From positions 1,604,501 to 1,668,500 of the forward strand of contig JAJGOT010000030.1 of NCBI GenBank assembly GCA_022457155.1: a DNA stretch of 64,000 bases. Direction: 5' to 3'. This document shows, one piece after another, positions 42,820-64,000 of this stretch. Numbering within the stretch: position 1 is the stretch's first letter; every line of letters begins with the position of its first letter. Source of the DNA: Cladopsammia gracilis. Its lineage: Eukaryota > Cnidaria > Anthozoa > Scleractinia > Dendrophylliidae. The translations under genes and the position numbers were made by a program. The notes beneath the pieces were generated by a model that saw nothing but the letters and a program-made list of their open reading frames with translations, had not been told where the DNA came from and ran no database searches.

Positions 42820-43006
42820 TTATTTGCTTTCGTCAGCAGTGCTAGCCCCAGGGGGTACGTGGTAGTACGGACTGGATTCATCATGCTTTCCCAGGTCAAG
42901 GTACGGTACATCCTTCTGCATTATCACTTCCAGTTTTTCAATCAGCTGCGAGAAACTGGGACGAGAGGATGGGTCCTGTTTCCAGCACTCACTCATCAGT
43001 TCATGT
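42820..43006 (-). CDS. Receptor kinase exon O: last helices and tail, stop codon
   Basis: Encodes HELMSECWKQDPSSRPSFSQ, LIEKLEVIM and a short tail with PYLDL and SPYYHVPPG, possible SH2-binding tyrosines. TAA at 42820-42822 ends the protein. Confidence 0.93.
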
Positions 43007-46000
43007 CTGTTCAGGATAAAGAAATGAAACTGACGATAAATAATCATATTGAATTATTCAGTAAAGATTTTACGTCTATTGTGAACAAAGAAATGAAAGT
43101 AATTAACAGCTGTTCGCACGAATGCTGTATTTTATAGATCCATTAGCGGAGAAATTGCAAGGACAACTTTGTAAAATTGACACTTTCGATCCATGGCAGG
43201 TTAACCCTCGGACGTACACGCAAACTTATACCGCCACCGTGGTACGGGGGGGGGGGGGGGGGGGGGTTGTTGCAACCTCTCCTTTGGGTTTTTGTGATGT
43301 TGCAATATTTCGGAAATATTTTACGTCTAATGGATAGCCTGTGATGTGCTCTACAAGTTAAGGTAAACATTATGGGTTGTGGCGTTGCTGGGGTTCCGTG
43401 ACGTCATCCAATATGGCCGCCACCTCAGTGATTTTACTACAAATTCAAACTTATCGGAAAAATGCGGAAATTGCAGATATTTTTTTGCTAGAGTTGCAAA
43501 ATAGCATACAATTAAACAATTGCGATAAAAGGTGAAAAACACGCCGCATTTTTATACAAAAATGACTTGACTTCGTGCTGCTTATGACGACATATCTCGT
43601 TGCCGTAGCAACCGGTTGTCGCCAAAATGAGTCTCAAGCTTCTGAAGACGACATGGTCTTGAAAAATTCGGAGAAAAATCTTAAGGGGGGGGGGGGTGGT
43701 GGTGGCGGTGGCATCCCCCCTTGTACGTCCGAGTAGAAGAAGTAGTAGAACAAGGAGCAAAGGACCGCGAACGAAAATGTTGCTGGAGTACGTAGGATCT
43801 ATAGAAGATCTAATCAGCCAAAAATAGTAATACAAACAGTAAGCAAGGCTGATACTATGTAGATCATTTAACGCGACAACGACATGATAGAGCCCAAACT
43901 GAAAGCCACACTGCAACCGTGAACAGCTGTTTCGACCTGGTTGGGTCTCGTCAGCACGGTGTAGCAGCAAAAAGATAGAAAAATCAGCGCGAACGCCAAT
44001 AGTCTACCAAATTTCACGTGGTGATGACCTCAGATGAGCTCGAATTCAAATGTTTGCCAATCTGCCAACGTCACAGCGCGTGACGGATGAGTAATAGGCA
44101 AAGAATTTGAAATATCATGTTGTTGCCGCGATAAAGAAAGTGAGGATAGACACAAACTATCCTTCAGCGATTCACGCATGGGCAAAACTACTCAAGCAGT
44201 TTAAGGCCTGGGTTTAAAGTGTGTTCGGAAAATATGGTTGACACTTAATATCTTGACCGAGAAACCTTAGATCAAAATGAAATTTTCCCTGAATGTTAAT
44301 CTCGATGTTTTCTTTTGCCTTAAAGCAAAAGTTTGGTCACGTGACATGTCACGTGATCAAAATTTTAAAATTACGTAAATCGGCGATTTGGTAGCGGATT
44401 TTCTTTGTATAGTTAAATAAATTAGCTTTTCCGATAAAGGTTTAACATATTTAACCTTCTACGTTTGGAATGGTTGTCCTCAAGTCTTTAAATTACAGTT
44501 ATAAATAATTATAGGTTGAATTTTGGACTGAAAAATGACCTTTGTCCTCATAATTTATTTTTAGAGATTAATGGACACTCATTCCAAACGTGATGGGCTG
44601 GAGATATTTAATCTGCATCAGAAAAGCATTTTTATTTGATGTTTTCTCTTAAACCCGTCACCAATTCGTAAAATATTTGCTATTTTAAGAAAAATGGCCA
44701 CGTGACATGTCACGTGACTTATGCCAAAGCTTATTATACTTAAAAATGTTAAGGACGATAATATCTTTCTATATGCAAAATTTCGGTTCGGTTCCATTCC
44801 GTTTGTAAAAGTTATTACGAATAAACCGTTTTTCCTGGTCAAAGCCCTTGACCCAGGCCTTAAACTACTTGAGTATGTTAGAAAATAAGCAGCACATCGA
44901 TCAGGTCGAAACAGCCCCCCCCCCCCCCGAGGGGTACTCTGCAAATTTTTGGGTGGGGGTGTGCCCTTCGGGACTCTGAGACCCTTAACCTATACTAGAC
45001 CATTTTAGCTGCATTTTCCAACCCTGTTCTAGACTAAACACCGAAAAACCCTACCCTATTCTAGACCAAAACTCTCTGATAACTATACCCTATCCCAGAC
45101 TAAACTGCCTGAAAAACATACCCTTCACAGCGGCACATACCTATATAGCTCATATATGGGAGTACCCCGCCCCCCGGGGGGAAACAGCTGTCCAAGGTTG
45201 CATTTTACCTTTCAGTTTGGGCTTTATCATGTCGTTGTCGCGTACGTAGTATCAGCCTTGCTTACTAATTTTGTTTAATTTTTAATTCGATGATTTCTTG
45301 ACCACAACTGAGCACGAAGACTCTGAGAATAGATATCTAAACTTTTATCCCCTTGCGTTTTCCTAAGCTCATCAGAGGAAAGAAGACCCAGTTAAGCAAC
45401 TTACACTTCATCACTACACATGTCAGGCCTTTCCATACGATAACCAGTCTGGATAAGTCGAAAGAGCTCTGTATTGGTAAACGTAGGATATGGAACACCT
45501 CCTGAATTACAATGCGAGAGAATTTAATACGTTAATGGTAAGCCGATAAGCAACAAGCGTGACAATAACAGCGTATAAGCTGTGCGCGTATTACGTATGT
45601 TGAATAAATGCATATCGTTTGAGTGGTGTATGCTAATTCGTTGAATTCTTTCTTGTACCAATAAAATAACTGGTCGGTTAAGGCTGAGACGAAAACGGGG
45701 AGATAAGGTGACGGGGGTTGAGGGGCCTCGGAACTTCTTTTCATGATTCCTGGATGTGAAAATGAAACAATACATCAGACACGGTGTAAACGTAAACGAA
45801 CCGAGGCAACACCTTTTTGTAAGTGTATGCTTTTAGCCCACCAGGATATTAGAAAGTAGCAGGTGTCTGAAATTGGAAGTAAATGAACGTATAGACAGAT
45901 AAATAATGTAAAATAGTGCATTTTGAGCTCGGAAATAAAATGACAAGAAAAGAGTGATCATATGTCAGGAGCGCGAAAACACGATTCTTCAACGAGAATC

Positions 46001-46244
46001 GAACTCATGCCCTTCCGATAATATAGTTCATAAAACCTAAAAGGTTTACATACCTAAGGTGGCCATTTCCCAGAGAAGAACTCCATAAGCCCAGCTGTGT
46101 AAGAAATGCAAAAGCCACAAGTTAAAATTAGTATTAATCCCGATCAAAAAAGCTCGTTCCAACAAGCCTCTTCATGGTCGAGCGCGGCACACGTGGAATT
46201 TTAGAATTGATAGAGGAAGCCCTACGGTCTACGGTATTTAGTTA

Positions 46245-46281
<37 letters not shown>

Positions 46282-49200
46282 TACACATCAGTCTTGACAG
46301 TGAAAATGCTTTCTTGAAGCGATTCTGGGGCCATCCATTTCACCGGAAGCTTTTTTGTCTTCTTTGAATGGTACACATCCTGATAGATTTGACGCATCAA
46401 TCCAAAGTCTGACACCTTTATGCGATTATCACTGCCAACCAGGACATTACGAGCAGCAAGGTCTCGGTGAACCAAATCTTTTTCGGCGAGATGATTCTTA
46501 AAATGAAGAACAAATAAAGTAACAAAGTAAAAAAGGAAAAGCAAATGTAAAAGTAAGAATAATTAACTATTCACCTCAGTGTCTGTGACTAGTGGTGGAT
46601 GTTTACAGAGCCGTGCAGCGGCGAGGTAAATATCCACCACTGGCCACCGACGCTGAGGTGAATAGCTGTTTTAGTATATACTAAAACAGCGAAATAATGT
46701 AACACGAAAATGATGATTTTTAACTCATTTATTCCTGTTTATAACGATTACAATTTTCGCGCGCAAATGTTTGGAGATGAATAGCACTTGCTATCAGTAG
46801 CCAATCAGTGTGCCAACAGTGCTATCCACTATTTTAGTATATACTCATGTTATCCAACAAATTGACACTATGCCCATGTATGGTCAGTAAACAATCAATA
46901 TCTGTCATGTAAACATGACAGCTTTCCCCGCAGTAAACGTCACTGACCATATTTGGAAGTGTGTTGTTAAGTCCGAAGGCTTTGAGATGGACTCCATATA
47001 ATTGTAATTGTTGCAATTCAGTCTGTGATTGTTGCCGACTGAATTGCAACAATCGTGTTTCTATATAGTTGTAATTGTAATAATTCAGACGCCGATTTAC
47101 CCCTAGCACTCAGAACTTCTCGGTTTAGCAATCGCCGATTTATGTTGAAACTGCGCATCAGATTTCGAACATGTTCTTAACCTCTGCGACATCGCGCGAC
47201 AAATCGCGCCCAAATCGCACTGAAATCGCCGCCCTTTAACACATGCGATTTGAAGATGCAATTTGCGCGCGACAAAGATTGCACAAAAAATCGCCAGTGT
47301 AAACGGGCCGATCTACCCTTTAAAGACCCGTTTACACGGGCCTTAATGCTGATTGATTAGTAACATCACCAGTTGCACGTGTCGGCGACGAATGTTTCCA
47401 TTAAATGTTGAGACATAATTGTTGTAGAATTTGAACTGGTTCACTTTTTCTGCAACAGTCGGCGATCGTCACCGACTGAATTACAACAATTACAACTCGC
47501 GTTTCCATTAAGTCGTGATTCTTGTAAGACTTGATCGCCAGTAGTATATATAATGGGGGTTTTACGTCGGGTGGATCATGTGGATCATGTGGATTCATGT
47601 GGATCTGCATAATAAGAGATGTAATATTTAAAAGTGACGTCATTGCGGTAGACAATAGGTGTTAGACGGCTTACCCGAGTCAGTAAAGCATGACGTAAGA
47701 GTTAACGTATGAGACATTTTAACTGTTTTAGCTGTTTAAAAAGGTTTAGCTTAAAAAGACAAGGACAAAACAAGGACACCAGGAACAATTTAAGGACAAA
47801 AAGGACAAGACGAGGACTATCAGGACAAAAGGGACAAACGGGACATATCAAGTCTTAATGCTCTCTGCTCGAGAGGCATTAAGACTTTTATAACTTTACC
47901 GGTAGCTTCAAAGTTCAAACTTTTAATTATACGAACTTACACTGAACTAAATTTGCATGAAAAATTAGCACCTCGGAAAAATAAACAAAAGCAACCAATT
48001 ACATGCGTTACTTAAACAATAAACCCACACTCTGTTTAAGTAAAAATATATTTAATAATAACAAAACGCATTAAGGTTTCATCAAATCATTATGTCAACA
48101 AAAGCTGTTTTATTTAGAACAACTCAAATCCATGTACTACACAAATGAAAAGGAAATCAAGAACAAAATATTAGAATGAAATTACTTTACGGACGCAGCG
48201 CGAATTCACTCTAAGGCCGTATTGCAGCCCTAAAGCTTTGTTGGCTTTTTTCGGAAGCGAAGGTTTCCTCTGATAACGATTTTACGTTTGGTTCATCTCC
48301 GTGTAAGTAAATCCACTTTGTTTTATCGTTTGAATAATGTCTTAATTTAACTGGAGAACTCGGACGGGGGTTGTAAGGATTTTGGGAACTGGTATATTTC
48401 TATAACGTCGCGTTTTTCATCCAAGAAATTTTTATTCGATGCTGTTTTCGCAAATCCTTGATCATATATATTAAAAGTAACTAGATATCCGTGTTTTCTG
48501 TTGTGATCAAATGATAGGGGTACAGGAGGGGTACAGGAGGGGTACAGGAGGGGTACAGGAGGGGTACAGGAGGGGTACAGGAAGGGTACAGGAGGGGTAC
48601 AGGACGGGTACAGGAAGGGTACAGGAGGGGTACAGAAAGGGTACAGGAGGGGTACAGGAGTTTTTACTACCACCTCCTCCACCACCACCACAATTTTATT
48701 GTTTTCACCACCACCACCACAATTCTCCTCCACCACCACCACCACCACCACAATTCTCCTCCACCACCACCACCACCACGATTTTATTGTTTTCACTACC
48801 GCCAGCACCACCACCACCACAATTCTATTGTTTTCACCACCACCACCACAATTCTCCACCACCACCACCACCACCACAATTCTCCTCCACCACCACCACC
48901 ACCACAATTTTATTGTTTTCATCACCACCACAACAATTCTCCACCACCACCACCACCACCACAATTCTATTGTTTTCACCACCTCCGCCACAAATTGTGG
49001 TGGTGGTGGTGGTGGTGGTGGAGAATTGTGGTGGTGGTGGTGAAAACAATAAAATTGTGGTGGTGGTGGTGGTGGAGGAGAATTGTGGTGGTGGTGGTGG
49101 TGGTGGAGAATTGTGGTGGTGGTGGTGAAAACAATAGAATTGTGGTGGTGGTGGTGGTGGTGGTGGTGGCGGTAGTGAAAACAATAAAATCGTGGTGGTG

Positions 49201-52200
49201 GTGTTGGTGGAGGAGAATTGTGGTGGTGGTGGTGGTGGAGAATTGTGGTGGTGATGGTGGAGGAGAATAGTGGTGGTGGTGGTGAAAACAATAAAATTGT
49301 GGTGGTGGTGGAGGAGGTGGTAGTAAAAACTCCTGTACCCCTCCTGTACCCTTTCTGTACCCCTCCTGTACCCTTTCTGTACCCCTCCTGTACCCTTCCT
49401 GTACCGGTCCTGTACCCCTCCTGTACCCCTCCTGTACCCCTCCTGTACCCCTATCATTTGATCACAACAGAAAACACGGATATCTAGTTACTTTTAATAT
49501 ATATGATCAAGGATTTGCGAAAACAGCATCGAATAAAAATTTCTTGGATGAAAAACGCGACGTTATAGAAATATACCAGTTCCCAAAATCCTTACAACCC
49601 CCGTCCGAGTTCTCCAGTTAAATTAAGACATTATTCAAACGATAAAACAAAGTGGATTTACTTACACGGAGATGAACCAAACGTAAAATCGTTTTCAGAG
49701 GAAACCTTCGCTTCCGAAAAAAGCCAACAAAGCTTTAGGGCTGCAATACGGCCTTAGAGTGAATTCGCGCTGCGTCCGTAAAGTAATTTCATTCTAATAT
49801 TTTGTTCTTGATTTCCTTTTCATTTGTGTAGTACATGGATTTGAGTTGTTCTAAATAAAACAGCTTTTGTTGACATAATGATTTGATGAAACCTTAATGC
49901 GTTTTGTTATTATTAAATATATTTTTACTTAAACAGAGTGTGGGTTTATTGTTTAAGTAACGCATGTAATTGGTTGCTTTTGTTTATTTTTCCGAGGTGC
50001 TAATTTTTCATGCAAATTTAGTTCAGTGTAAGTTCGTATAATTAAAAGTTTGAACTTTGAAGCTACCGGTAAAGTTATAAAAGTCTTAATGCCTCTCGAG
50101 CAGAGAGCATTAAGACTTGATATGTCCCGTTTGTCCCTTTTGTCCTGATAGTCCTCGTCTTGTCCTTTTTGTCCTTAAATTGTTCCTGGTGTCCTTGTTT
50201 TGTCCTTGTCTTTTTAAGCTAAACCTTTTTAAACAGCTAAAACAGTTAAAATGTCTCATACGTTAACTCTTACGTCATGCTTTACTGACTCGGGTAAGCC
50301 GTCTAACACCTATTGTCTACCGCAATGACGTCACTTTTAAATATTACATCTCTTATTATGCAGATCCACATGAATCCACATGATCCACATGATCCACCCG
50401 ACGTAAAACCCCCATTATATATACTACTATCGCCGACTGAATTAAATCAATTATAACTATATGGGAACCAGGCTTAACAATTCTTTTCACGACATTTAAA
50501 GATCTTTTATCTCAGCACTTTCAAAATATATTTCATTTAGCTTAGTACATATCCGGAGGTCGAGTGCAAACTTACGAAGTATATGGAGCTCAGCCGAGAA
50601 AACGTTATGCTGCGTCAAAGACGAGAACATTATTTTAGTTTCATTTCCTTTCAGAAAGTTCATTGTTAAATTCACACCGTCGATGATAAAAGCTCGTTAA
50701 GATAGCAGCAATTTCTTCAATGAAAACTTGTTGATTATGCACGAGACGTCTACATGTTTGTAAATAATCGCCTTCAAGCGGTGGTAACTACACTTCAGCC
50801 GTACACTTCAGCGATTCTTGAGATTTCGCCTCAGTGTTTTTTTTTGTGATACCATAACTTAAGGCTTGTACATTATACAACCGTCTCTGTTCTTGTTTTG
50901 ACATGGAACTGGGTGACAATTTCAGTTGTTAAATAATTTATTGCGTTAAATATGCCTCACCAAGCTGGCTACACTTTGCCATCACGAATACACTACACGT
51001 ACCATTCCTTACCCCGTTTAACTCCCAAGAGTTCCAAATTAGTACAAAATTCAAGAAAAATCCAAAATTTCGTTTTGTAAAATATTGAAAAACAATTGGT
51101 ACCATGTAAAAGTACTGCCGAAGAGTTTTCAATAGCCCTTTTCGCGGTTAACCTTTCTCATTTGCATTACAGTAGAATTCAACATGATTGCGAGGTAATT
51201 TCGGGCAGAAACTACAAAATTGCCCGAAATTGCCTCGCAACCACGTTGAATTTTATTGTAATGCAAATGAGAAAGGTTAACCGCAAAAAGGGCTACTGAA
51301 TGGTCAGACCATCATGATAGGATTTCGTCGACAGACTCAAAAGTACTACATTTACATGTCTGAATAAAGTTCACTAACCAAGGTCTGAAAACAATAATAT
51401 AGGTTACTATATTCCAAAACAAAAACCATAATTACCATTCCCTTTGCTATTTGCCAAGCAAAAGTAAATAGTTGTTTAGTTGAAAAGCTGTCCTCATCTT
51501 CAAGTCCATCCTCCTCGAGATTTTCAGTTGAAAGGAACATGGCGCTTGTTTGACTTTTTACCTTTGATGTTGTTGGGATTGTCAGCAAATCTTGTTCAGC
51601 CTAAATGCATAAAAAAACAGTTACAAATTACAAGAAGTAAAGGAAGTGACGAGAGCAATCAAGAGTTTAAGGGTAAAACATGATCCACTGCAGGAGTTAC
51701 TTATACCCCAAGCGTGGTCCCGGTGCAAGGGTGGGGGGGAGGGTGGTTGCATCCCCTCCCCTTGGGTTTTTGCGATGTTACAATATTTCGAAAAGAATTT
51801 ACTTTCAATAGAGAGCCTGTGCGTGGACGCTTTACAATATGAGATAAATATGATGGGTTATGGCGCTGCTACCGCCATATTGGATTTTACTCTGAATATT
51901 TAAATTTGTCAAAAAAATTGCGAAATTGAAAATATTTCTTGCCAGAGTTGTGCTCATTCTACTTGTGACGTCATATCTTGTTATCATAGCAACCGATTCT
52001 CCCCCAAACTTTGCTAAAATGTGTCTCAGAGATAAACAAACAGCTACTGATAAAAATATGTGCTAACTGTAAATGCTCTTGAATGAGAAAATCGAAGATA
52101 AACCTTAAGAGGAGGGGGTGGCATCCACCCTCTCTTGTTCGTCAGAGGGTTATAACTTACTAAATAACTAATTGACTAACTAATGCTATATATGTGTTAT

Positions 52201-55200
52201 TCAATGGGAATGCGAGAAAAATTAATGGGTGGGTTATAAAATAAAACAGGATTAATGGCATTTTCTGCGCACGCGCGAAATTATCGTTTCCTTGCATAAT
52301 ATCTTAGCAGCTTTTTAAATTTTAAATTTTTTTCCGGATAATTACTGAATTTTGTTTTATATTGTTGTATGTAGTCTCTTCTTACTTTGACAGAAGTCGA
52401 CGCAGCTGTCATATCTAGGACAACATCCCTGTTATCTCGTGGTGGAGTCAGTACAATATTCACTGGGGCTGCTGAGCATGATGTCCGGTCTTCCTCAACC
52501 TTTCTAGAAACATCTCCTTTGTTCTACATGATTAAAAACATTGATCATAGTTTGTTTTGTTTTCTATCAATTATTATCATTCTTCTATTGAATGTTATAA
52601 TGTAAAACATTATGTGGACTTCATCCTTACTTCAAGCAGATTCTCAACAGACGATGCTTTGTCCGTGACGTCACAATCATCTTGAAGCATTGCTCCACCT
52701 TCCATCTTCTCTTTGGTGTCATTTTCCTCCAACTGTTCAAGAATAACTTTCTGATCCTGTAAATTATTGTCACATGAATATTAATGGTTTACACCGATTT
52801 CTTTCAATAAGAAAATTAATATCTCGTAAGCAATATGTCGATATTCACTTTTTTCTCTTGCATAGTAATATAACTTTAACGTCAGTGGATTATACACACA
52901 GTTTTTTCACTAAGAAAAACAGTATCTTGCAAATAATAGGATGCAATCAAACAACATCCTTAAGATGTTTAAATATTGCCCTGAGAGCAAAATATGAAAA
53001 ACAACTGGAGGATTAATGAGATTATCTGCAATGCAGTCTTACTTCAAGTACATTTTAATAAGGCGATACTCATTGTTTTTATTTTTTTATTTTATTTTAT
53101 TAACTTCGCCAAACTTGGCAGGGACACCACAACAGCTTGCGCCAATTACTGTGGCCCGTACCCACCTCCCTAGGGATAGGTTGCACACTGAGGGTGGTCA
53201 CAGCCAGGGTTTTGTTACGTCCTCAGTGGTTCTTTAACGTCCCCTACAGTTAGAATGCAAAGAGTTGAAGGAGACAAGGCCAACGGCTTAAAGTCACCAC
53301 CCAATGACGCGATCATCTGAACTGAGACAAGGTTTTTTTAGCACAGACAGCATGATCGTACCAGTTATTTAAAGACACTGGTTAGTGGTCCGGCCGGGAT
53401 TGTCCATACTAACCTCCTTAATTCCTTGTAATGGTATCCATTCCACCTTCCCTTGGATGTGACCTTCACTGACCTGTTCCGCGATAACTGTGTTCTCCTG
53501 CAAAGTTATTTTATGAAATTCAGTGAATTATAAATTTAAATGTTTTTTACTCAGAAAGAAGAAGTTTTGAACTCTACAGTTTCTAAGCTTCCTACAAAAG
53601 ACTTCAAAACAAAATTCCATAAAATCGAACCCAATCCTTGAGCTCACATCATCACGCTGCTGTTAAATATTTGATTCATGGCTTAATGTGGAATGATAAT
53701 GAAAAAAATGTATGCAGTCCATTCCTACTTTCATGATGACGTCGCTATTATTTTGTGATGGGGCCGTGAATTCCTGTTTCACTTGGGTGTCATCTTCTTC
53801 AATCTGTCCCAGAATAACTTTGTTATCCTATGTAAATTAAAGCAAAACTTGATCAATTGAAAGCTAAGTCAAACCTATTTGACCATATTTATACATATGC
53901 GACAAAATGTTATATATACAGTTTAATTTATAATTTTATATTTATTCAGTTCAAGGAGAACACTAATCCCGCCCAGCCGTTAAAAAATGCAATCATTAAA
54001 ATAAAATAAAATAATTCAATGATTTAAACGGTTGGCGGTTTTGAAATAATATGAACCAGGCATAACTAATCAATGATCAATGACATCAATGAGTAATCAA
54101 TGGGTAATCAATGGGTAATCAATTGATTAATCATTGAGTATTGCCAATACTCAATGAGTAATCAATGATTAATCGAAGCCAAAAAATTTTGTGGGTCATT
54201 GATTACTCATTGATGTCATTGATTACTCATTTTACACCAACAGAGACCTTCCAGTATACCCATTTCTCTTCCTGTCACCCACCAGGGGGCAGAAAAGGGC
54301 TCAGGAAAGGTGGAGCCCTGAGACTTTTAAGAGCAAATTCCTCAGCGAAATCATTCAGTGAGAATATCGACAACTTCAAAGCACGCCTCCGTGCTAGAGG
54401 CTACACTCACAATCTCATTGAGAAAATAATTTCCGAGGTAAAATTCAATGAACGGAAGTCATCTTTGCAGCAAAAAAAAAAAAAAAAAAAACGTGCGAAA
54501 AAACAATATTGCCTTTCGTAACAACGTACCACCTGGCGTTGCCTAATCTTAAAAAATATCTTAATGAACAAATGGCATTTAATTCAGAACCAATCATTGC
54601 TAAGAGAAATATACAGAGTCTCCCCTTATCTCATACAAAAAAGGAAAATCCTTGGGGGATATACTTGTTACAGCATGCAAAACTCTAAAGGTCATATTCC
54701 ACGTTATCACGAGCTTATGAGTCGTGTCTGGCCTGTCAACACCTCTTTTCATGCAAATTAATGACTAATCAATGACATCAATGACTAATCAATGACCAAA
54801 AATTTTGTGGGTCATTGATTAGTCATTGAGTACTCATTGAGTATTGACAATACTCAATGAGTAATCAATTGATTACTCATTGATTACCCATTGATTACTC
54901 ATTGATTACATTGATATCATTGATGTCATTGATTAGTTAAGCCTGGTATGAAAGGGCATTTTGGAAATATTTTGCTCTATGCAAATTATTCGCTTTATTA
55001 CTGTTTTGCCTATCATGCCCTAAAATGAGTTTTGATTTACTCCAAAACCGTCTTATAAATTTTCTTTGAAACTTCGTCAACACCTAGTGATAAGTGTGTA
55101 GTACAAAATTTGAAAGTTTCACTATGAAGTGTCAGACTAGGTTATAAGAAAAAAGACATGTTTAATACAAAGGGCAATAGGCTGGCGTTGGAAACCAGTG

Positions 55201-58200
55201 GAACATAAAACATTTTATAAACTTGGTGAAGTATGAAAACAATTCCGAAGCATGGCTTCCCCGTTCGAAATTTTGATTTAAAAACTCACACCCCACCCGG
55301 CAAAGAAAACGAATACATTACTTGTCAAAAAATAATAAATTTTGGCTTATTAAGTAACAGGTATATTTCTTCAAAGCTGGTTTTCATATAAAATGTCATA
55401 CAAGAGAAGCGTGTTTCATCAGAATTTTCCGGAGTTTTTTTGTTTTGTTTTGTTGACAAGCAAGTTATTCACGCAAGGAGGCACCTCGTCGCGGAACCGT
55501 TGCTCATGCACTGTACGTGATTCGCTCCCCATTGGACTATTCAGAAGGGATTTTTATATAAAGTAAAAGGTTAAATCAACGGACAACCTACCTTATCAAA
55601 TTCTCTGTTTGTTTCTCGATCGTTTAAAACATCTTTGTTTGCATATAATTGATCAGAGTCTTCGTGTTTGACGATCTAGAAAAAATAAAACTAGCATTAG
55701 CACTGTCACAAATCAGTACACCCGTGAAGGCAGACTCTGACGAAATATCATACGCCGTCTCAATTCACAAGAAGGAGCATCAAGGTAGGCTTTGGCTTAA
55801 AGTGAGCAGACTGATAAGCATTTAAAAGCAATGTGGCACTAGAGGTGTTGACCACGCACTTGAAAAACATGTTGAGTCACATGCACAACAGGAGTTCGCG
55901 TGGCTGGTGTTATGAAAGTTTCGAGAGAAAATAGCTAAATATAACCCCATATTACCCCTCGCGCCGTCTAGCTTAAATTTAAATATACATATACATTGTT
56001 TATTATCTTTCCCAAAGGGGCTTTTTAAAGATAATACAAAAGATAGAAATAAATTAATTAATAAAAACAATAAAAACTACCGCAAAATACATATTACAAT
56101 AAATGTAGTAAAACTTAAAGATATAAATATACAAGTGTTTAAAAAGTTATATACAGTTTTGAGAATATGTACAATATGTACAATATGTACACAATATGAA
56201 TATGTAGAATATGTACAAGTGATTAAAAATTATATACAAAGATAGAATTATATCTTATTAAATTCTTTTAATAGCGGAGCACTTGCCAGGCCGAAGGCCT
56301 GGCTGCGCAGCCCCATACTCATTGAACCTATGCCGTCATTTTTCATGGTCATGGCTAGCGGAATGTTTCGCGGGCGCGCGTGAGCCCTTCGCCGTCACGC
56401 AGGACCGGGCTCCGTCACGCAGGGCTAGCTCGCGGGCGCGTATGACGTCGCAAAACATGCGCGTACGACGTCATGTTGAAACCAAAGCGAGGCTTTTTTT
56501 CGCGCGGTTACACGGCCGAATGTCACGTCAGCAACACTTTGATGTTTTTCTGTGTTTACTGAGCGGAGAAAACGGTTTAAATTAATTAAGATATACTCAG
56601 AAGCCGCTTTAGTGGAAAAAGACGAGCTTTCAGGGATAAAATCTTGCTTCGAGGAACTTCATGTATTACGTTTTTATCAATGCGGGAGATGTTTGTTTTC
56701 TACGGATTTCAGAACCAGAAGCGGAGATTTGAATTTCCAAGCAAGCGAGGGACTTTTTGACAAACATAAACTGTATTTTATTCGGAAACTAGTGGTACTA
56801 GTTATTCTAGACAGAGAAAAGTTGTTTTTGTGAACTTTTGTACGGTCTATAAAAATGTACTGTGCAGACGGTCGCGTAATACTATTTTTGAGAATTGCTA
56901 AAATTGAAAATAGCCCGTTCGTCAATCTTAATTCTTGTGCTTCCAACCTTTCACCTTAGTTAAGTTTCACCTTAGGCTTGGGCTATCTATATATATTAAA
57001 GACTAGCATGCTAATGCAACGATTGTAATTGTCTTCCAGGCTTAAATCCATTCAAACATGTATGGAATAAACTATTAATTCTAGATGTTATTTTCAATTT
57101 TATGCTTGAAACTTTATAAGCCCTATTCAGACCAGGCCCATTATGGGTTATGGCTGTTTATATAGTACTTCAAACATGTATAAGTTAAGGTAAGTCACGG
57201 GAGGCGATCACGTCACATTACTTGGGAATACGATGTGGTCTCGAATGGCTGCCACTAGACAGCTAGAAAAAGGATATATTTTTCTCTTAATTTTAATTTT
57301 TTCTCTTAATTTTATCAGTAAATTCCAAATTTACTGTAGGTAAACGTGCCTGTCAAAAATGGCCACAATGGAGACGTAACATGTTATGAACAAAAAATCG
57401 TCACATCCAGATGTTCCAAGATAATTTGAAGAAAAATTCACGAAGTTTAGTGAGGATTGGTTTAACGCTTTTAAAGCTATAAAGTAAAACGTTCAAAGTC
57501 CGCGAGGGCACTCCCCTCCATCCCCCCCACCCCCTACCCCCACTCCCCTCCAGGCACACACACACATCGGTCGGTCTGAATAGGTTTTCTTTCTCAATAT
57601 TTTAGAAGTAAACTGTTTTTTTTTTCACTTATCATTTCGGGAATCCCAAGCGAAGAGATGGTCGGTTAATTTTCATTTTCTTACCATTTTCCTCCTGTGA
57701 CGTAACCAATTTAACAGGTCACCAAACGGAACGTACTCAATCACCAGGAACTTTTCCGCCTGAAGTGTGCAGCATCCAACCATGGATACTATATTCTTGT
57801 GTGAACCTAACAGCTTCATCTGCTGAATCTCAAACATGAACTCTTCTTTTTGCGCTTCAGTTGGATTATCTAACCACAAGAAAATAATTTAATAATAAAG
57901 TCGAGATGTCAGTCTCCGAATGACATCCTACATGTTAGATTTCATTACGAATGGAAAATAATTCGCCGTTTCCATCACGTCCAACACCCGGCCTGCGCAT
58001 GGTCAAATCAAATTTGTTAGAGCTGAGTATGGATCTAGTGTATAAATGGACATTGGAACTGGGGAACTGTTAAGAAACCTGATTACAAACAATGACTTAC
58101 GTGAGTCGCAAGTTGTGCAAACCTTTTGATTGGTCAATGTTGCTCAATTTTACAGCTCGTCATTTTTGTTGTTCCTGAAAACATCATCAATGCGGTTTGA

Positions 58201-59817
58201 AAATGTGACGTTCTGCTGTTGGAAACGCAACTTTTTCAAACTCTAACAAAGTCGAAAAATTTTGGTGGTTCCCAGCGCGCTCAAATGCAAACTATAGTAA
58301 TTTACCTTGCAAAACTTTGACTGCAACAACTTGACGTGATTTCTTTCGATCATTTAACATCCGTTTTCCCCTGTAAAACACTTCTATCCCAACTCGCTTT
58401 GTAAAAGTTGCTTTGTGAACCACACCAAACGCTCCTCGTCCCAGCTCTTCCTCGTATTCTATTTGATCAGGAAGAATTTCCCACTTGTCGAGTGGAATAA
58501 TCTCGCGCCGTGGTGGCGCTGATCTGGAAAGTATGGAGAAATACGGTTTAATAATTAAGCCATTCGAACAGGTATCCCAGTACTTTCTAAACTTTCTCAA
58601 AGTTCATGATCACTTCTCCTTTTTTCCGGGTCTGGTAAAACCGCGCCGCGCCAATGAATTTTCTTCTAGCTGTTGCGGCATTTTCTAAGCGCCCGTTAAT
58701 CAAGCCTGCAGAGCAAGCTAAAGGAGCGAAACTTAAACTCTTTCAGCAGAAATTGACTCTAAATTAATTCCTCGTCGACGTTTATTTTTTGGGGGAATAT
58801 CATTTTGTTTTCGTCCTGTTTAGATTCTAAATATTTGTTAATTCGACTTCAAATTAAATCAGTACATTGCCTAAGGCCAGGATACCGTTGGTAGTTCATT
58901 CTTTTTCGCTCTGAAAACAAATTTACTACGCGCTTAATAATATTTTCATCGGCAAACTTGATTGCTTAAAAAACAGAACAAGAAATTTTTGGAATTCGTT
59001 TAGAGAAAAATGCTGAAACGTTCGGTAGAAGAAATACCTTCTGTTTTGCTGAAGGGATTCTGTCGAACATTTGACGGTCACTCGATTTACTTGCAGTGAA
59101 AACAATGTATAAACTTGCGAAACAAATATTAATTTACCGCACGCTAAATAAAATGTTTTCTTCGGTAACGGTAAGAACACAACACTTTTTTAAAGCAAAA
59201 TGCTCCACAGATTCAGAGAAAAGGCATGCTATTTTGCCGTAAGGAAAAAGTAAAAGGTTTGGCGTTATTCGATTTTCCGGCTGTGAAAAATATTTTTTTA
59301 CGAGACGCTGAAAAGTTCGGGCCAAAATGTTATGACGTCACTCGATTCAGTTTCTTGCGAAGGAAACAACGAAGTTCCTCTCGCCTCTCACTGACTAAAT
59401 AATTATTTAGCCTTAACGAAAGGAATTCTAATGTCTCTAATAAAGGGGTCATTTAGTTTCGAAAAAGAGTCTGATAATAGTTTACTTCTTAAGTGCATTC
59501 GAGTCTTGTTTGGTTACAATGAATGTATCAAGTTATTAAGATAACATTGTTAAAACCTTTCCAGTTGCTTGTGGTGTAACTTCTTGTAGCAACGAAAACC
59601 AATGATAGACAATAGCAGCAACAGAATGAAGGCGACACCACATGATACATAAACAATCGTAGTGATGGAGTTTGAGTTCCCCGGTAATTCTGTGAAGTTG
59701 TTAACTGTAAAGTAAATAAGGATAAGTAAGCCACAGTAACTGATAGCGCGAAAGTAACCAGGGACATGCAGACAATTATCGTTTTCACTCATTTAACGAA
59801 AGGTTGATTCCCCCCCC

Positions 59818-59866
<49 letters not shown>

Positions 59867-61141
59867 CCTCCCCATTAAAATTAGCATGGGATAATTATAG
59901 ATTTTTTTTCTCGTTATTGTTAAAAATAGCGTAGGGTAAAAAATATGACCTAAGGGTTTCGCCTGCTGGCTTCAAACAAAAAATATTATTTATAGAAATT
60001 TTATTTCGCATAATTAGATTTTTTCTGAAATAGTGTGAAGGTTTTCGACTCTGTATCACAAGGAATTCCGATTGTCACATCTGGCTTGAAATAGTAGTTT
60101 TCTGTCCATTATGCAAGTAAAAAATGCGTTTATACACAAACAAACTAAAACAAGGAATACGATCTAACCTCTGTTGCACAGACTTCCATGACAGCACTGT
60201 ATAAAATATTTGTTCACAGTTTTACCACAATTATGTTGCTTGGTGCATCCGGCGTATTTAAAACTCTTTTCGACACTGGAACCTTGCTGTTTCCAAGCCC
60301 AAGCAGAAAAGCACTGGCCATCGTTGAAAATACACTGACGGACTGAGCACTCTTCGGTAGACACGGTATTGGCACATTCATAGCATCTGGGTCCTAGATC
60401 TAATTACAATAAAAAGCTGTCAACAAACTAATGTGTGATTCAAAGACGTAATTTTAACATGCCCAGTATCGTTAACAGAGCTTTTTATCAGTTATGACAA
60501 CTTTGTACATCATCTGACTTTCTGAAAGCAATTAAAAGCTTGCGAAGCTCTGTTGGAAGTAACGTGCATAAGAATGGTACAGGAGGCAGTAACAGGAAAT
60601 TGAACTACGAAATATGCTAATGAAAAGCATTTTAAAAAAACCGATCATTTGACTTTTCAAATAGCACAAATGATTATTGCTAAATGATAACGAATATACT
60701 TTGTATTACCTGTATTACACTTATCATCATCGCAACAGTCCACTTTCACATTACTGGTTTGTTTACACTGATCAGTAGTGGTGCATCCCTTGTTATAACG
60801 TGTATTACCTGTATTACACTTATCATCATTGCAACAGTCCATATTCACATTACTGGTTTGTTTACAGTGATCAGTAGTGGTGCATCCCTTGTTATAACGT
60901 GTATTACCTGTATTACACTTATCATCATCGCAACAGTCCACTTTCACATTACTGGTTTGTTTACACTGATCAGCAGTGGTGCATCCTTTGTTATAACGTG
61001 TCTCTAGTTTCCTATCTTTGGTTTTTGTTTTATATTCCATTTTGGCACAATGGTGCACAGGTATCGGGCAATCAACTATTCTTTGATGTTTAGTGCAGTC
61101 ATCCAATGATACGTTGCTTGAACACTGATAACAGGAGATTT
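42820..61141 (-). CDS. Receptor tyrosine kinase with two Ly6/uPAR three-finger ectodomains (15 exons)
   Basis: Fifteen minus-strand exons join with matching phases at every junction, giving about 813 residues without a stop: exons at 61141-60710, 60393-60169, 59704-59557, 58523-58306, 57869-57685, 55675-55592, 53827-53729, 53497-53414, 52756-52631, 52523-52386, 51600-51436, 46496-46285, 46094-46054, 45501-45405 and 43006-42820. Order: three-finger domain 1 with two extra third-finger repeats (1-145), three-finger domain 2 (145-220), transmembrane helix (about 234-256), kinase N-lobe (about 290-403), kinase insert (about 404-618), C-lobe, and a tail with PYLDL and PYYHVPPG. All catalytic residues are present (K338, E355, HRD 645-647, DFG 665-667), so it should be active. 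The kinase is nearest FGFR-like receptors. A signal-peptide exon upstream was not found, so the N-terminus is incomplete. An extracellular ligand or partner is not predictable. Confidence 0.88.
43203..43733. mobile_element. Inverted-repeat element with poly(G) margins, copy 1
   Basis: Ends AACCCTCGGACGTACA and TTGTACGTCCGAG (inverted, imperfect). Inside are TTGGGTTTTTGTGATGTTGC, TGACGTCATCCAATATGG and other blocks shared in order with the copy at 51695-52152. Confidence 0.7.
43838..45271. mobile_element. Larger inverted-repeat element with nested elements
   Basis: The outer arms (43838-43940, and 44902-45271 interrupted) are inverted copies: AGTAAGCAAGGCTGATACTA at the left and TAGTATCAGCCTTGCTTACT at the right. 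An inner inverted pair, CAAGCAGTTTAAGGCCTGGG and its reverse, spans about 44192-44874. Within that, the perfect dyad TCACGTGACATGTCACGTGA occurs at about 44338, and again almost unchanged at about 44699. Confidence 0.65.
44916..45180. mobile_element. hAT-like MITE, 265 bp, with 8-bp target duplication
   Basis: GAAACAGC at 44908-44915 and 45181-45188 flanks an element with C-run, GAGGGGTACTC and GGAGTACCCC ends. Inside, CTAGACTAAAC- and TACCCTAT-type words repeat. It interrupts the right arm of the surrounding element exactly at the duplicated site. Confidence 0.85.
45405..45501 (-). CDS. Receptor kinase exon N: C-lobe
   Basis: Encodes GVPYPTFTNTELFRLIQTGY, then RMERPDMCSDE. Acceptor TAATTCAG; donor GAAGT/GTAAGT, phase 2. 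Confidence 0.93.
46054..46094 (-). CDS. Receptor kinase exon M: helix F
   Basis: A 41-nt exon that completes DVWAYGVLLWEMATLG across both junctions. Acceptor TTACACAG, donor TTAG/GTATGT. Confidence 0.92.
46242..46280. repeat. (ATT)n microsatellite beside exon L
   Basis: About a dozen ATT units begin five bases past the exon L donor region. Confidence 0.85.
46285..46496 (-). CDS. Receptor kinase exon L: catalytic and activation loops
   Basis: Encodes DLVHRDLAARNVLV, KVSDFGLMR, an activation loop with two tyrosines (QIYQDVYHSKKTKK), and LPVKWMAPESL. Phase 0 in, phase 2 out (GATGT/GTAAAT). Confidence 0.95.
46564..46670. mobile_element. Imperfect hairpin element
   Basis: CTATTCACCTCAGTG and, inverted, GCTGAGGTGAATAG enclose a second inverted pair (AGTGGTGGATGTTTAC / GTAAATATCCACCACT). 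The palindrome TTTTAGTATATACTAAAA follows directly. Confidence 0.65.
46835..47533. other. Repeat-rich intron with GTTGCAATTCAGTC motifs
   Basis: Related words (CCGACTGAATTGCAACAATC, CCGACTGAATTACAACAAT) recur at 46986-47055 and 47460-47500, and CCCGTTTACACGGGCC marks a repeat edge at 47327-47342. A probable patchwork of small elements. Confidence 0.45.
47540..50428. mobile_element. 2.9-kb near-perfect palindromic (foldback) element
   Basis: The sequence from 47540 reads as the reverse complement of the sequence ending at 50428, centred near 48984: AGTAGTATATATAATGGGGG at one end and its complement at the other, and the same through each 1.4-kb arm. ATCGCC at 47534-47539 and 50429-50434 is a direct repeat at the borders, a probable target duplication. 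From the outside in, each arm has unique sequence, GGACAA-type short repeats, unique AT-rich DNA, a GGGGTACAGGA minisatellite (48515-48660 and 49330-49455) and CCACCA/TGGTGG arrays. Minisatellite copy number differs between arms. No transposase. It sits in the intron between kinase exons K and L. Confidence 0.9.
48510..49460. repeat. Minisatellite (GGGGTACAGGA) and (CCA)n/(TGG)n core of the palindrome
   Basis: About 13 GGGGTACAGGA-type units, then CCACCACCACCACAATT blocks with ATTGTTTTCACC spacers, then the mirror image. Long open frames on both strands rich in P, T, H, V, W are by-products of the repeats. Confidence 0.9.
51132..51297. mobile_element. Hairpin MITE, 166 bp
   Basis: TAGCCCTTTTCGCGGTTAAC and, inverted, GTTAACCGCAAAAAGGGCTA are ends of arms that stay paired for nearly the full length, through CTTTCTCATTTGCATTACA and AATTGCCTCGCAA. 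TA-type target likely. Confidence 0.85.
51436..51600 (-). CDS. Receptor kinase exon K: end of insert and helix E
   Basis: A 165-nt phase-0 exon. An acidic serine-rich part (STENLEEDGLEDEDSFSTK) leads into QLFTFAWQIAKGM, the conserved helix before the catalytic loop. Confidence 0.9.
51695..52152. mobile_element. Inverted-repeat element, copy 2 of the 43203 type
   Basis: Shares ordered blocks with copy 1 (TTGGGTTTTTGCGATGTTAC, GGGTTATGGCGCTGCT, GTGACGTCATATCTTGTTAT, GGTGGCATCCACCC). Ends near GTTCGTCAGAGGGTT. Confidence 0.65.
52386..52523 (-). CDS. Receptor kinase exon J: kinase insert
   Basis: A 138-nt phase-0 exon from AAC after AATCATGTAG to AAA/GTAAGA, encoding NKGDVSRKVEEDRTSCSAAP and NIVLTPPRDNRDVVLDMTA. 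No tyrosine; no similarity to a known motif. Confidence 0.65.
52631..52756 (-). CDS. Receptor kinase exon I: kinase insert, VILEQ repeat
   Basis: A 126-nt phase-0 exon encoding DQKVILEQLEENDTKEKMEG and a serine/acid-rich end (TDKASSVENLLE). A duplicate of exon G by sequence. Confidence 0.75.
53085..53413. repeat. Interspersed repeat fragment between kinase exons H and I
   Basis: A block of mixed composition with GGCCCGTACCCACCTCCCTA and GACAAGGCCAACGGCTTAAA, unlike the AT-rich intron around it. It resembles a retroelement tail common in corals. The family is not certain. Confidence 0.4.
53414..53497 (-). CDS. Receptor kinase exon H: kinase insert, VIxEQ repeat
   Basis: An 84-nt phase-0 exon encoding ENTVIAEQVSEGHIQGKVEW and IPLQGIKE, between good splice sites (TTTGCAG; GAG/GTTAGT). 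Confidence 0.7.
53729..53827 (-). CDS. Receptor kinase exon G: kinase insert, VILxQ repeat
   Basis: A 99-nt phase-0 exon encoding DNKVILGQIEEDDTQVKQEF and APSQNNSDVIMK. It is clearly similar to exon I and more weakly to exon H. Confidence 0.75.
54059..54943. mobile_element. Foldback element with ATCAATGA arms carrying a Penelope-like fragment
   Basis: Ends ACCAGGCATAACTAATCAAT and, inverted, ATTGATTAGTTAAGCCTGGT, flanked by ATGA on both sides (4-bp target duplication). Both arms (about 180 bp) are built from ATCAATGA-type words and contain GAGTATTG(C/A)CAATACTC dyads. The centre (54225-54760) is decayed reverse transcriptase sequence. Confidence 0.75.
54230..54725 (+). pseudogene. Penelope-like reverse transcriptase fragment inside the foldback element
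   Basis: Frame pieces in order: FTPTETFQYTHFSSCHPPGG, ALRLLRANSSAKS, NFKARLRARGYTHNLIEKII, an (A)19 run near 54473, FVTTYHLALPNLKKYL, then NKWHLIQNQSLLREIY one frame over. The order matches the region between the catalytic domain and the linker in Penelope-like elements. Frame shifts at the A-run and at about 54562 kill it. Confidence 0.65.
54944..55591. other. Kinase intron, no recognised element
   Basis: AT-rich sequence without gene or clear repeat. Confidence 0.4.
55592..55675 (-). CDS. Receptor kinase exon F: kinase insert
   Basis: An 84-nt phase-0 exon (TTTTTTCTAG before, AAG/GTAGGT after) encoding IVKHEDSDQLYANKDVLNDR and a charged end. It is the first exon of the kinase insert, with one tyrosine (QLYANKD). 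Confidence 0.75.
56275..56560. other. GC- and CpG-rich block in a kinase intron
   Basis: CpG-dense sequence in an otherwise AT-rich intron, with CAGGCCGAAGGCCTGGCTG at its start, repeated CCGTCACGCAGG words and three TGACGTC/GACGTCA motifs (56441, 56467 and nearby), the core of CREB/ATF sites. Open frames to 56833 have no recognised domain. It could be an inserted repeat or a CpG-rich regulatory region. Confidence 0.4.
57119..57590. mobile_element. Possible inverted-repeat element
   Basis: AAGCCCTATTCAGACC at 57118 and GGTCTGAATAGG at 57575 are inverted ends. The right part has poly(C) and a short (CA)n run. No coding capacity. Confidence 0.45.
57685..57869 (-). CDS. Receptor kinase exon E: helix C and hinge
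   Basis: Opens after TGTGGTTAG. Encodes EEFMFEIQQMKLLGSHKNIV, with the helix-C glutamate, and LVIEYVPFGDLLNWLRHRR at the hinge. Ends ATG/GTAAGA in phase 0. Confidence 0.93.
58306..58523 (-). CDS. Receptor kinase exon D: juxtamembrane and glycine loop
   Basis: Encodes IPLDKWEILPDQIEYEEE, then the loop LGRGAFGVVHKATF and QVVAVKVLQ with the ATP-anchoring lysine. Phase 2 in, phase 1 out (CAAG/GTAAAT). Confidence 0.93.
59557..59704 (-). CDS. Receptor kinase exon C: stalk and transmembrane helix
   Basis: Opens after ACTTTACAG in phase 1. A short stalk with an NFT sequon is followed by TIVYVSCGVAFILLLLLSII and then the basic stop-transfer stretch RCYKKLHHK. Ends GAAAG/GTTTTA in phase 2. Confidence 0.85.
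59808..59872. repeat. Poly(C) followed by (TC)n microsatellite
   Basis: About 18 C, then roughly 19 TC units, then CCCC-rich sequence, between kinase exons B and C. Confidence 0.95.
60169..60393 (-). CDS. Receptor kinase exon B: Ly6/uPAR domain 2
   Basis: A phase 1 to 1 exon of 225 nt. It encodes PRCYECANTVSTEECSVRQC, NDGQC, KYAGCTKQHNC and IQCCHGSLCNRG, i.e. all ten cysteines of a canonical three-finger domain in order and spacing. Confidence 0.9.
60710..61141 (-). CDS. Receptor kinase exon A: Ly6/uPAR domain 1 with tandem third-finger repeats
   Basis: Opens after TTCTTTCTTTAG in phase 1 and encodes ISCYQCSSNVSLDDC, VDCPIPVHHC, then RYNKGCTTADQC and VDCCDDDKCNTG: the ten-cysteine three-finger pattern ending CCxxxxCN. 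The last 33 residues recur twice more in tandem (RYNKGCTTTDHC and RYNKGCTTTDQC units; 99-bp period). Each unit adds five cysteines. Each unit ends CAG/GTAATAC, so donors exist at 60908, 60809 and 60710, all phase 1. Using the first gives a canonical single domain. Confidence 0.88.
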
Positions 61142-62200
61142 CTAAAGAAAGAAATGAAACATAAAACGATCTTAGTTGTCATTTCATTAAGGGCTTCGAC
61201 AGACTAGACCAGTTTTTATCGATAACTATATATTGAGGTGTCGTTCATTAAGGTTGTCGATAACCATAGATTGAAGCTAGTTTGTGAAGCAAGCTATCGA
61301 TAACGAACTTTAAAACAGTGGTAATCAAAATAAAAACAAAACTAAACTACAGGTGCAAGCCATATTACCAAATCGATTAGCATACGTTTCGCCGCGCGAC
61401 AAGCCCTGGAAACGAGGTTGACATGCACACCAAATTAAAACGCTGGACAATAAGTTACTTACCGGGAATTGTGTACTATAGTGTGCGAGAAAAGCTCTCT
61501 CGAACATTGATAGTTGTCGAATCAATTTAGATTTCGAATAAGTCAGTCAGTCAACTAAAGGCGACAGGTGGGTCATTGTTCATCGTGGTAGAGAATGATA
61601 ACATTGAAGCGTAATATCGCTTTTCTGACGATGAACATGCAGTAAATAGTGACGTCTCGACGCCTTACTGCTAGTCTCCATAAGGCGAGAGAACTGGGCT
61701 ACTCTTTCGGTGATCGGCTGCGGTAGCACCATTCTCCAGTTGTTTTGATTCTTGAACCGTTGGCATCCACGCTTCTGGAATCTTGATTCCGATATCCCGG
61801 CATGTTGATAAGACTAATGCGAGGGGATAGCCTCATCAGTGATGTCAGATTTACCCAAGTCACTACATCGCGAGACAAACGTACACGATAAACGATAAGA
61901 GCGACGTGACACAAAGATTGCAATGTAATCTATGGATGCGAGGACAAACAAAAACAAAAACAAAACCTTCTATACATATGTAGTGGTCACCTGCTCCTAG
62001 ATTCTTGAAGTGAAATGAAATAAAACAAAAAAAGGTGGATAGAGCAAGAATAAGTCATCGCTGTCGAATCACTTGTTTAATGTGCTCCTTTTAGTTCGCA
62101 GGTTACCATGGAAACTATGAAGAATTGAAACGGGGATGTTATGGGATAGTGCAACGTCATGAAAGACAAAAGGTCGGTTATTTAAGGTGGCTCCAAGTAA
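61142..62200 (-). other. Upstream of receptor kinase exon A
   Basis: The signal-peptide exon should lie here or further right. The only hydrophobic start found (MACTCSLVLFLF, minus strand from 61363) stops at once without a donor. Nothing else convincing. Confidence 0.4.
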
Positions 62201-62204
62201 TTTT

Positions 62205-62770
62205 TTGGGGGTCACATTTCCCTTTTTGAATGCGCAGTATACATAATCTTATTTTAGCTCAATGAATCTGAATTTGATACCAGATGTTAGGCTTGGCATT
62301 TTCACTCTTTTAAAACTGCATTTGAATAAAAAGCTCGATCTCTTTTTTGTCGAGGAGTTAGTCAGAGTTATTTGCAGGGAGTAGTGATTTATGTCTGAGG
62401 AAAATGTCTGTGGTAATTTAATGACAATATATGAGACCTATGGAATGTTTTGACCGCTTATATCTCAAACATGAAAAACCGCATGTTAAAAATGTTTCAG
62501 CGATTTATTCAAAATCGAACAGTTTAATTTGTTTGAAATTTCACCATTTAGTGTGCTACACTGTGTAGATTATAGGGCATTTATTCGTTTGTCGCGGAAA
62601 AACTGTTTTCCGCCATGTTTATTTACCGTTGCTATGGACACGCTGATTAGCATAAAAAGAGCACCGTCCAAAACTTTCATCCAAGCCTAACATCTGATAT
62701 CAAATTCAGATTCATTGAGCTAAAATAAGATTGTGCGTAAGCGCATTCAAAAAGGGAAAGACAATTTATG
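62205..62770. mobile_element. Inverted-repeat element, about 560 bp
   Basis: TTTCCCTTTTTGAATGCGCA at about 62218 and, inverted, TGCGTAAGCGCATTCAAAAA plus GGGAAA at about 62737 head arms that stay matched through AATCTTATTTTAGCTCAATG and CAGATGTTAGGCTTGG. No transposase. Confidence 0.8.
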
Positions 62771-63121
62771 GAACACCACATCTGTTTATAAGTTGGCCAT
62801 TTTAAGTTGATGAATGTTTTCTAGTCTGTGCCATAACTATATGCCTTCTGGACACTCGTTACAGTAAATAACGTTTAATATTTGGGATGGCGCGTAGACT
62901 AGCGATCAGTTGTTTTTTTTTTTTCAAAAAGAATTGAATCAGCATATGCATCTGTTTATTCATGTAAAAAGCAGTATGGTTTCCAAAAAAGGATTTCACC
63001 TGGTTTTTGTTTTCTAAGATCAGAATTCACGACAAAATATTTCATTTCAAATGTTGAAATATTTTTCCAGTTTCGCGCTTTTGAGATGATTTTAGTTTTA
63101 ACCAGAAAAGACAGAAAAGTC

Positions 63122-63200
63122 TCGAGTCGATTATGAAAGCCACAAGTCGATTATTTAAGCCACAAGTCGATTATTTAAGCCACAAGTTGATTATATAAGT
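63122..63200. repeat. Short tandem repeat, 20-bp unit
   Basis: GTCGATTATTTAAGCCACAA occurs about four times in a row with small changes. Confidence 0.8.
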
Positions 63201-63797: not shown

Positions 63798-63843
63798 AGC
63801 CTGCGACAGCCGCCTGAGGGGAGGAGGCGGCTGTCACAGGCTA
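63798..63843. mobile_element. Small hairpin element
   Basis: TAGCCTGCGACAGCCGCCTG and, inverted, CGGCTGTCACAGGCTA form an almost perfect hairpin with a GAGGGGAGG loop. Confidence 0.65.
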
Positions 63844-64000
63844 TTTGAACTTAAAATTTGGCGTGCTAAGTATACAGCACTTCTACTTTCCAAAACTGAA
63901 GAGAAAGGGAAATGCAAAATTTTAATCATGATAGCAATTTAAAAATTACTCCCGCCAGCGTTTGAATGTTTCTTTTTTATCGCTGGAGTATTTTCCTCCG

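Follow-up and report, generated by a model that had tools for sequence, protein, structure and literature searches.

A coral gene encoding a receptor tyrosine kinase with Ly6/uPAR-type domains, and its relatives with other ectodomains

Introduction

The TGF-beta, activin and BMP receptors are serine/threonine kinases. They share with the coral gene described here a Ly6/uPAR-type (“LU” or three-finger) ectodomain on a single-pass receptor kinase; however, the Activin_recp profile stays below its cut-off on the coral domains. FGFR, PDGFR, VEGFR and RET are likened to the coral gene on two features, kinase sequence and a long insert between helices αD and αE, and have another ectodomain. Tandem ten-cysteine LU domains ending in CCxxxxCN are found in uPAR and other Ly6/uPAR proteins, although uPAR is GPI-anchored and has no kinase, as described in the available part of a review of LU proteins (PMC6600238). 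The same part of that review treats LU as a proto-module at most.

Going by the available parts of the papers describing or citing it (PMC2680970, PMC3531485), Hydra Sweet Tooth, a known lectin receptor tyrosine kinase (RTK), is the nearest named precedent. Like it, coral relatives of our gene are cnidarian RTKs with a lectin in the ectodomain; unlike them, Sweet Tooth has no LU domain in those descriptions, which are the sole basis of the comparison. We do not equate Sweet Tooth with P0139, a Hydra lectin RTK among our sequences; the kinase of P0139 is 45.6% identical to ours, below the values within the coral family.

A holozoan tyrosine-kinome study (PMC8662651) discusses, in its available text, both ectodomain shuffling and long DE inserts, and sets its FPVR subgroups by sequence motifs; a term search of that main text gave no mention of Ly6, uPAR or lectin. 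The available part of a paper on cnidarian pattern-recognition receptors (PMC8260672) counts U-PAR/Ly6 among the domains that it takes as marking lectin proteins as extracellular and names no LU-bearing RTK. Term searches of the available text of PMC10236652 and PMC12314368 (coral gene expansion) and of PMC9897584 (P. damicornis receptome) found none either, nor did full-text searches of a collection that most subscription journals and all preprints fall outside. The same searches yielded no published name for the coral RTKs with CUB-Ig or FN3/laminin G ectodomains. The LU-bearing RTK architecture is thus apparently undescribed. A first-pass annotation of this DNA had called it a distinct receptor architecture. 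In the literature searched, that description stands, but the same pairing is already present in database coral proteins. These relatives are deposited with names taken from the kinase or with none, so databases already have the sequence type, which is apparently just undescribed.

A 15-exon gene for a single-pass receptor

We use “the window” for the whole 64,000-nt stretch of Cladopsammia gracilis DNA that was analysed. Its minus strand holds 15 exons running from 61141 down to 42820, each located once. All internal borders are GT-AG, phases agree at every junction, and joining the exons gives 746 aa in one open frame that ends with a stop at 42820. In protein order, the exons encode two LU domains, a stalk, a membrane helix, the juxtamembrane segment, the kinase N-lobe, an insert and the C-lobe. 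The single, strong membrane helix (residues 169–187) lies between ectodomain and tyrosine kinase and is encoded, along with the stalk and the start of the juxtamembrane segment, by exon TM (59557–59704, phase 1-2).

Only one database protein matched the ectodomain end closely. With residues 1–205 as the query (lengths set by the whole protein), a search of 5.8 billion proteins returned 122 candidates, one of which, P0001, matched at E up to 1 (E = 1.5e-44). P0001 is a protein of 673 aa with an unbroken LU-LU-TM-kinase-insert-kinase order, encoded on one contig of 2,696 nt. That length is far below the 18 kb of the gene, so P0001 is most likely a transcript. It begins within its first LU domain, such that its own N-terminus is not covered, and is 55% identical to the window protein over 735 columns, from LU through kinase. 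The kinases are 79% identical, and the LU cysteines are retained in the aligned part. An in-phase joining by chance is ruled out by this unbroken protein. Judged from sequence, therefore, the window carries a real gene with a conserved, unusual LU plus tyrosine kinase architecture. The structural claims of the first-pass annotation are upheld accordingly: 15 in-phase exons on one strand (by borders, phases and the 746-aa frame), one gene for an LU-bearing RTK (by the continuity of P0001 across the junction), and two ten-cysteine domains, one helix and a tyrosine kinase (by cysteine counts, Pfam and motifs).

The LU domains

Each LU domain is encoded by one exon of symmetric phase 1-1, TFP1 at 60908–61141 and TFP2 at 60169–60393, and each has 10 cysteines and a CCxxxxCN end. 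TFP1 narrowly passes the Pfam cut-off for PF00087 (Toxin_TOLIP; 21.7 bits vs 21.2) and lies below that for PF00021 (UPAR_LY6; 18.9 vs 24.8), which TFP2 passes (29.7 vs 24.8). Activin_recp scores 12.6 bits on TFP2, below its cut-off of 20.9, and gives no report for TFP1. In profile searches with the LU domains, uPAR is the top match, and BMPR-IA appears merely at E = 0.41. The predicted fold of TFP1 is three-finger, with uPAR domain III as the best structural match of the model (VIA-align); the TFP2 fold model is poor (pLDDT 56.5). By sequence, then, the ectodomain domains resemble uPAR/Ly6 proteins rather than TGF-beta receptors, and the earlier label of a “TGF-beta-receptor-style” ectodomain is not supported. 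Kinship with those receptors is ruled out by the Activin_recp scores, by the uPAR-first profile matches and by PDB matches to tyrosine kinases (see below).

An alignment that took in 20 of 31 LU segments from the window and its relatives has 8 cysteines invariant in all 20 rows and 2 more present in 90% or above. Porites rows with a single LU have 8 cysteines instead of 10. The symmetric phase-1 exons are consistent with exon shuffling, as had been proposed at the outset. Symmetric, single-exon LU domains in RTKs, standing beside lectin domains in relatives, bear directly on the proto-module view in the available part of PMC6600238.

Within and after TFP1, a 99-bp unit is present in three tandem copies (60702–61001, minus strand; 95% matches), duplicating the final third of that LU domain. 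The copies end in possible donors of the same phase at 60908, 60809 and 60710, their context having been read by eye. Because every copy has the same possible donor in the same phase, alternative splicing could yield one to three copies of the unit.

The kinase domain, its insert and its tail

The kinase (Pfam score 293.7 bits) begins in exon K1 (58306–58523), which covers the juxtamembrane segment and the glycine loop up to VAVK, and continues in K2 (57685–57869; αC to αD). After the insert exons, K3 (46285–46496) encodes HRDLAARN, DFG, the activation loop and APE, K4 (46054–46094) encodes αF, K5 (45405–45501) part of the C-lobe, and K6 (42820–43006) the end of the C-lobe, the tail PYYHVPPG and the stop. 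The catalytic motifs GRGAFG, VAVK, HRDLAARN, DFG and APE are each present once and intact. HRDLAARN is a tyrosine-kinase motif, and the best 60 of 2619 PDB matches are all tyrosine kinases, with no serine/threonine kinase among them. In these 60, FGFR3, FGFR1 and FGFR2 rank first and RET is close behind, setting aside one EGFR entry that tops the ranking by summing two kinase copies. Describing the kinase as FGFR-like, as had been done, is fair on this ranking.

Six phase-0 exons make up the long αD–αE insert and run into helix αE: KI1 (55592–55675), with a similar stretch in P0001, KI2 (53729–53827), KI3 (53414–53497), KI4 (52631–52756), KI5 (52386–52523) and KI6 (51436–51600), which carries the insert end into αE (FTFAWQIAKGM). 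The insert is 223 residues long by the borders set in our script, and ranges from 48 to 284 residues across the 20 rows where it could be measured. That KI2 and KI4 are paralogous is clear, their score being reached by 0 of 500 shuffles. KI3, the weakest exon in the chain, was placed by its splice sites and by weak similarity to KI2 and KI4; its score was reached by 2 of 500 shuffles against KI2 and by 1 of 500 against KI4. P0001 seems to hold one exon where the window has both KI2 and KI4. Judging from these alignments, insert length variation arises partly by exon duplication. The insert of Oculina P0002, read by eye, has a separate duplication of its own.

RTKs activate by trans-phosphorylation. 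The intact catalytic motifs, along with the activation-loop tyrosine pattern IYQDVY, fit this standard mechanism as far as sequence can indicate. Grb2-type SH2 domains bind sites like the YxN pattern. It occurs, as YYNV or a close form, in 20 of 26 complete tails; the window tail has YYHV instead and so lacks YxN, as do 14 of the 20 measurable inserts. YxN as a conserved adaptor site was rejected: it is found in those 20 tails but missing from the window’s own.

The intron between KI6 and K3 contains a large inverted repeat (47540–50428), with arms of 1096 nt that are 99% complementary and 697 nt apart. Its centre is rich in CCA/TGG.

LU-bearing relatives

With a two-sequence profile of the window protein and P0001, 5288 candidates were obtained, 54 of them at E up to 1e-10. 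In a kinase-only search, the best 120 of 6158 matches were taken, so the coral distribution given below covers the retrieved proteins and may not be exclusive to corals. The CCxxxxCN motif is present in 15 of 142 retrieved proteins, and all 15 also have kinase sequence, covering from 0.22 (P0046) to 1.0 of the kinase query. Fourteen of the 15 come from eight named coral species: Oculina patagonica, Porites harrisoni, P. lobata, P. lutea, P. evermanni, Pocillopora verrucosa, Stylophora pistillata and Desmophyllum pertusum. Some of the models are incomplete or of poor quality: P0011 keeps just the end of an LU domain, and P0046 just the start of a kinase. In a Pfam scan of the 15 other than P0011, LU passes its cut-off in P0002, P0003, P0007, P0008, P0044 and P0077 and scores below it in P0046. 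At E up to 0.01 it reports no LU in P0001, P0004, P0005, P0030, P0035, P0043 or P0047, so in these the LU assignment is based on motif and alignment. Some relatives are named FLT3-, PDGFR- or KIT-like in public databases, presumably from kinase resemblance, and others have blank names. This points to a receptor family that has been left unnamed or labelled by its kinase.

One kinase clade with several ectodomains

The kinase tree was built from 298 columns, with 47 family rows and 12 outgroup rows of our choosing. Four of the 51 rows above 60% kinase identity (P0046, P0047, P0049 and P0050) were excluded for coverage under 0.55. We assigned ectodomain labels from Pfam and motif, and rows with no modelled ectodomain are unlabelled. 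The family splits from the outgroup at 100/100, and its rows are 60–81% identical to the window kinase; the window’s own row reaches 98% against the insert-free kinase query, a shortfall presumably due to BLAST extending into the insert. Twenty-five Porites rows form one clade (100/98), and the placement of the window gene and P0001 is not firm.

Ectodomains in the family comprise LU, lectin plus LU, CUB plus Ig, CUB plus Ig plus laminin G, CUB plus lectin, and Ig. The CUB-Ig RTKs (P0006, P0012, P0022, P0026 and P0056) are in a common kinase clade with the window gene but differ in ectodomain, as do the FN3/laminin G RTKs P0070 and P0073, outgroup members about 55–56% identical to the window kinase. 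The window kinase is 76.6% identical to that of CUB-Ig P0012 and 68.5% to that of lectin-LU P0007. The branch between 13 LU rows (P0044 left out) and 11 rows with CUB, Ig or CUB-lectin has support of 73/90. The fewest ectodomain changes are three among three coarse states and four among five states, or three of the latter when P0040 and P0044 are omitted, with only one change needed from an LU-bearing to a CUB/Ig head or the reverse. We also considered whether CUB-type ectodomains were swapped repeatedly and independently, which is unsupported: a constraint uniting the seven CUB rows is not rejected (p-AU 0.0565), and the tree needs the LU-CUB/Ig exchange just once.

Precomputed Pfam annotation lists further domain combinations in more distant RTKs: lectin, sushi, F5/8 and laminin G in P0112 (Porites lutea), CUB and EGF in P0086 and P0087 (Stylophora), and FN3 and laminin G in P0070 and P0073 (Oculina).

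A proposed mechanism

We think it likely that the window contains a single-pass RTK gene of a stony-coral family, complete except for its 5′ end, with a lectin-LU head that would work as follows. From the relatives, exons for a signal peptide and for one or two lectin domains of the C type are expected upstream, beyond 64000. A glycan and/or protein ligand, on a surface or in solution, would engage the lectin and LU modules and bring receptors together. Trans-phosphorylation between the kinases would follow, on the activation loop (IYQDVY) as well as on tail and insert tyrosines, and the phosphotyrosines of tail and insert would recruit SH2 adaptors. Since the kinase is retained while the ectodomain varies between members, the family may couple one shared output module to a range of recognition heads.

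Sugar recognition can be considered head by head. A motif of EPN, EPD, QPD or QPN with a later W, which we take to resemble calcium-dependent sugar sites, is kept in 8 of the 12 lectin-bearing relatives scanned (P0002, P0004, P0007, P0008, P0017, P0023, P0046 and Hydra P0139); it is missing from the scanned P0005, P0040, P0043 and P0047, and from the lectin domain of a neighbouring gene (see below). The presence of the motif in some relatives and not others makes glycan binding plausible for some heads of the family and less likely for others. If the ectodomains do recognise glycans or cells, they would offer a testable link from surface recognition to phosphotyrosine signalling in reef corals. 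A bolder proposal is that this is a coral RTK family with one kinase and interchangeable heads (lectin plus LU, CUB plus Ig, CUB plus Ig plus laminin G, lectin), which would parallel in animals the lectin receptor kinases of plants and might sense symbionts, microbes or neighbour colonies, with LU a truly mobile module; we regard that proposal as doubtful.

Alternatively, the receptor could be chiefly a growth-factor or developmental receptor rather than one for recognition. The kinase is indeed nearest to FGFR and RET among the best 60 of 2619 PDB matches, the EGFR entry aside, and some relatives bear FLT3-, PDGFR- or KIT-like names. However, those names were presumably taken from the kinase, and ectodomains vary among members. 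Moreover, of 9 pairs compared, 7 have an LU part that falls behind the kinase in conservation, with gaps of about 6 to 30 points; in the other 2, both close pairs, the two parts are about equally conserved. Ectodomains are often less conserved than kinases. A chiefly developmental role has some claim but is rather unlikely, and we favour recognition.

The 5′ end of the gene

TFP1 must be preceded by an exon that ends in phase 1, and the gene is therefore incomplete at its 5′ end in the window. The remaining 2.86 kb (61142–64000) has no LU or lectin match (the best tblastn hit, at E = 0.029, is to a kinase fragment). A strict scan of this segment for signal-peptide exons found none, at a threshold that would also miss 6 of 14 real donors; when relaxed, the scan picked out a single weak candidate (61507–61423) with a poor donor, against two on the opposite strand used as control.

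The relatives suggest what lies upstream. A hydrophobic stretch starts within the first 30 residues in 5 of the 15 LU-bearing relatives, and in four of these five a C-type lectin precedes LU: P0005 and P0043 are lectin-lectin-LU (Pfam calls the first lectin; the second was read by eye), P0007 is lectin-lectin-LU-LU-LU, and P0047 is lectin-LU. In the model of the fifth, P0035, there is a single LU and no lectin. Lectin also precedes LU in P0002, P0004, P0008 and P0046. Given this order, and a lectin gene downstream in the window, lectin exons are expected beyond 64000, and they are probably located there.

The other reading is an ectodomain of two LU domains and nothing more, preceded by a signal-peptide exon at the window end or shortly past it. 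TFP1 does start in phase 1, as expected after a signal-peptide exon; there is the candidate at 61507–61423; and the models of P0003, P0030, P0035, P0044 and P0077 have LU and no lectin, P0035 with a hydrophobic start. However, P0003, P0030, P0044 and P0077 have no such start and look incomplete, the candidate has a poor donor and is outnumbered by the control strand, and an LU-only ectodomain is made less likely by the lectins that precede LU in four of the five relatives with a signal-like start. We judge it distinctly unlikely. With upstream lectin domains as the preferred reading, the three-finger and kinase part of the first-pass gene model stands, and its ectodomain is probably not complete, with more modules upstream as in those four relatives.

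Integrity of the locus and neighbouring features

It is very improbable that the locus is a decaying copy that has lost translation. The window does contain transposon-like fragments, a large inverted repeat lies inside one intron, some donors are weak and the first LU exon is partly triplicated; against this, 746 codons are free of stops and frameshifts, the catalytic motifs are all intact, and P0001 retains 79% kinase identity and, in the aligned part, the LU cysteines. That a GPI-anchored Ly6 gene merely lies next to an unrelated kinase gene, their exons joining in phase by accident, can be dismissed as almost certainly wrong, in spite of the many GPI-anchored or secreted LU proteins described in the available part of PMC6600238, given that P0001 reads through the junction in a single frame on a 2.7-kb contig and LU is paired with kinase in five named coral genera.

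The receptor gene has a possible relation nearby. On the same strand, 30 kb away, a second gene starts with a possible signal-peptide exon (13010–13070, proposed from phase, hydrophobicity and donor only) and two lectin exons, all in phase: a C-type lectin domain exon at 7546–7953 (phase 1-1; Lectin_C 75.3 bits) and the start of a second C-type lectin at 1241–1440 (51.5% identical to residues 114–178 of P0002). It leaves the window before any kinase exon and is perhaps a paralogue of the receptor gene.

Transposon fragments with similarity to reverse transcriptase and an integrase zinc-binding domain are found on the plus strand at 8752–9597 and 34968–36365, the latter match being below its own Pfam cut-off, and on the minus strand at 10229–10822. 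The plus strand also has an open frame for a fibrinogen C-terminal domain at 23566–23991 (Pfam 164 bits).
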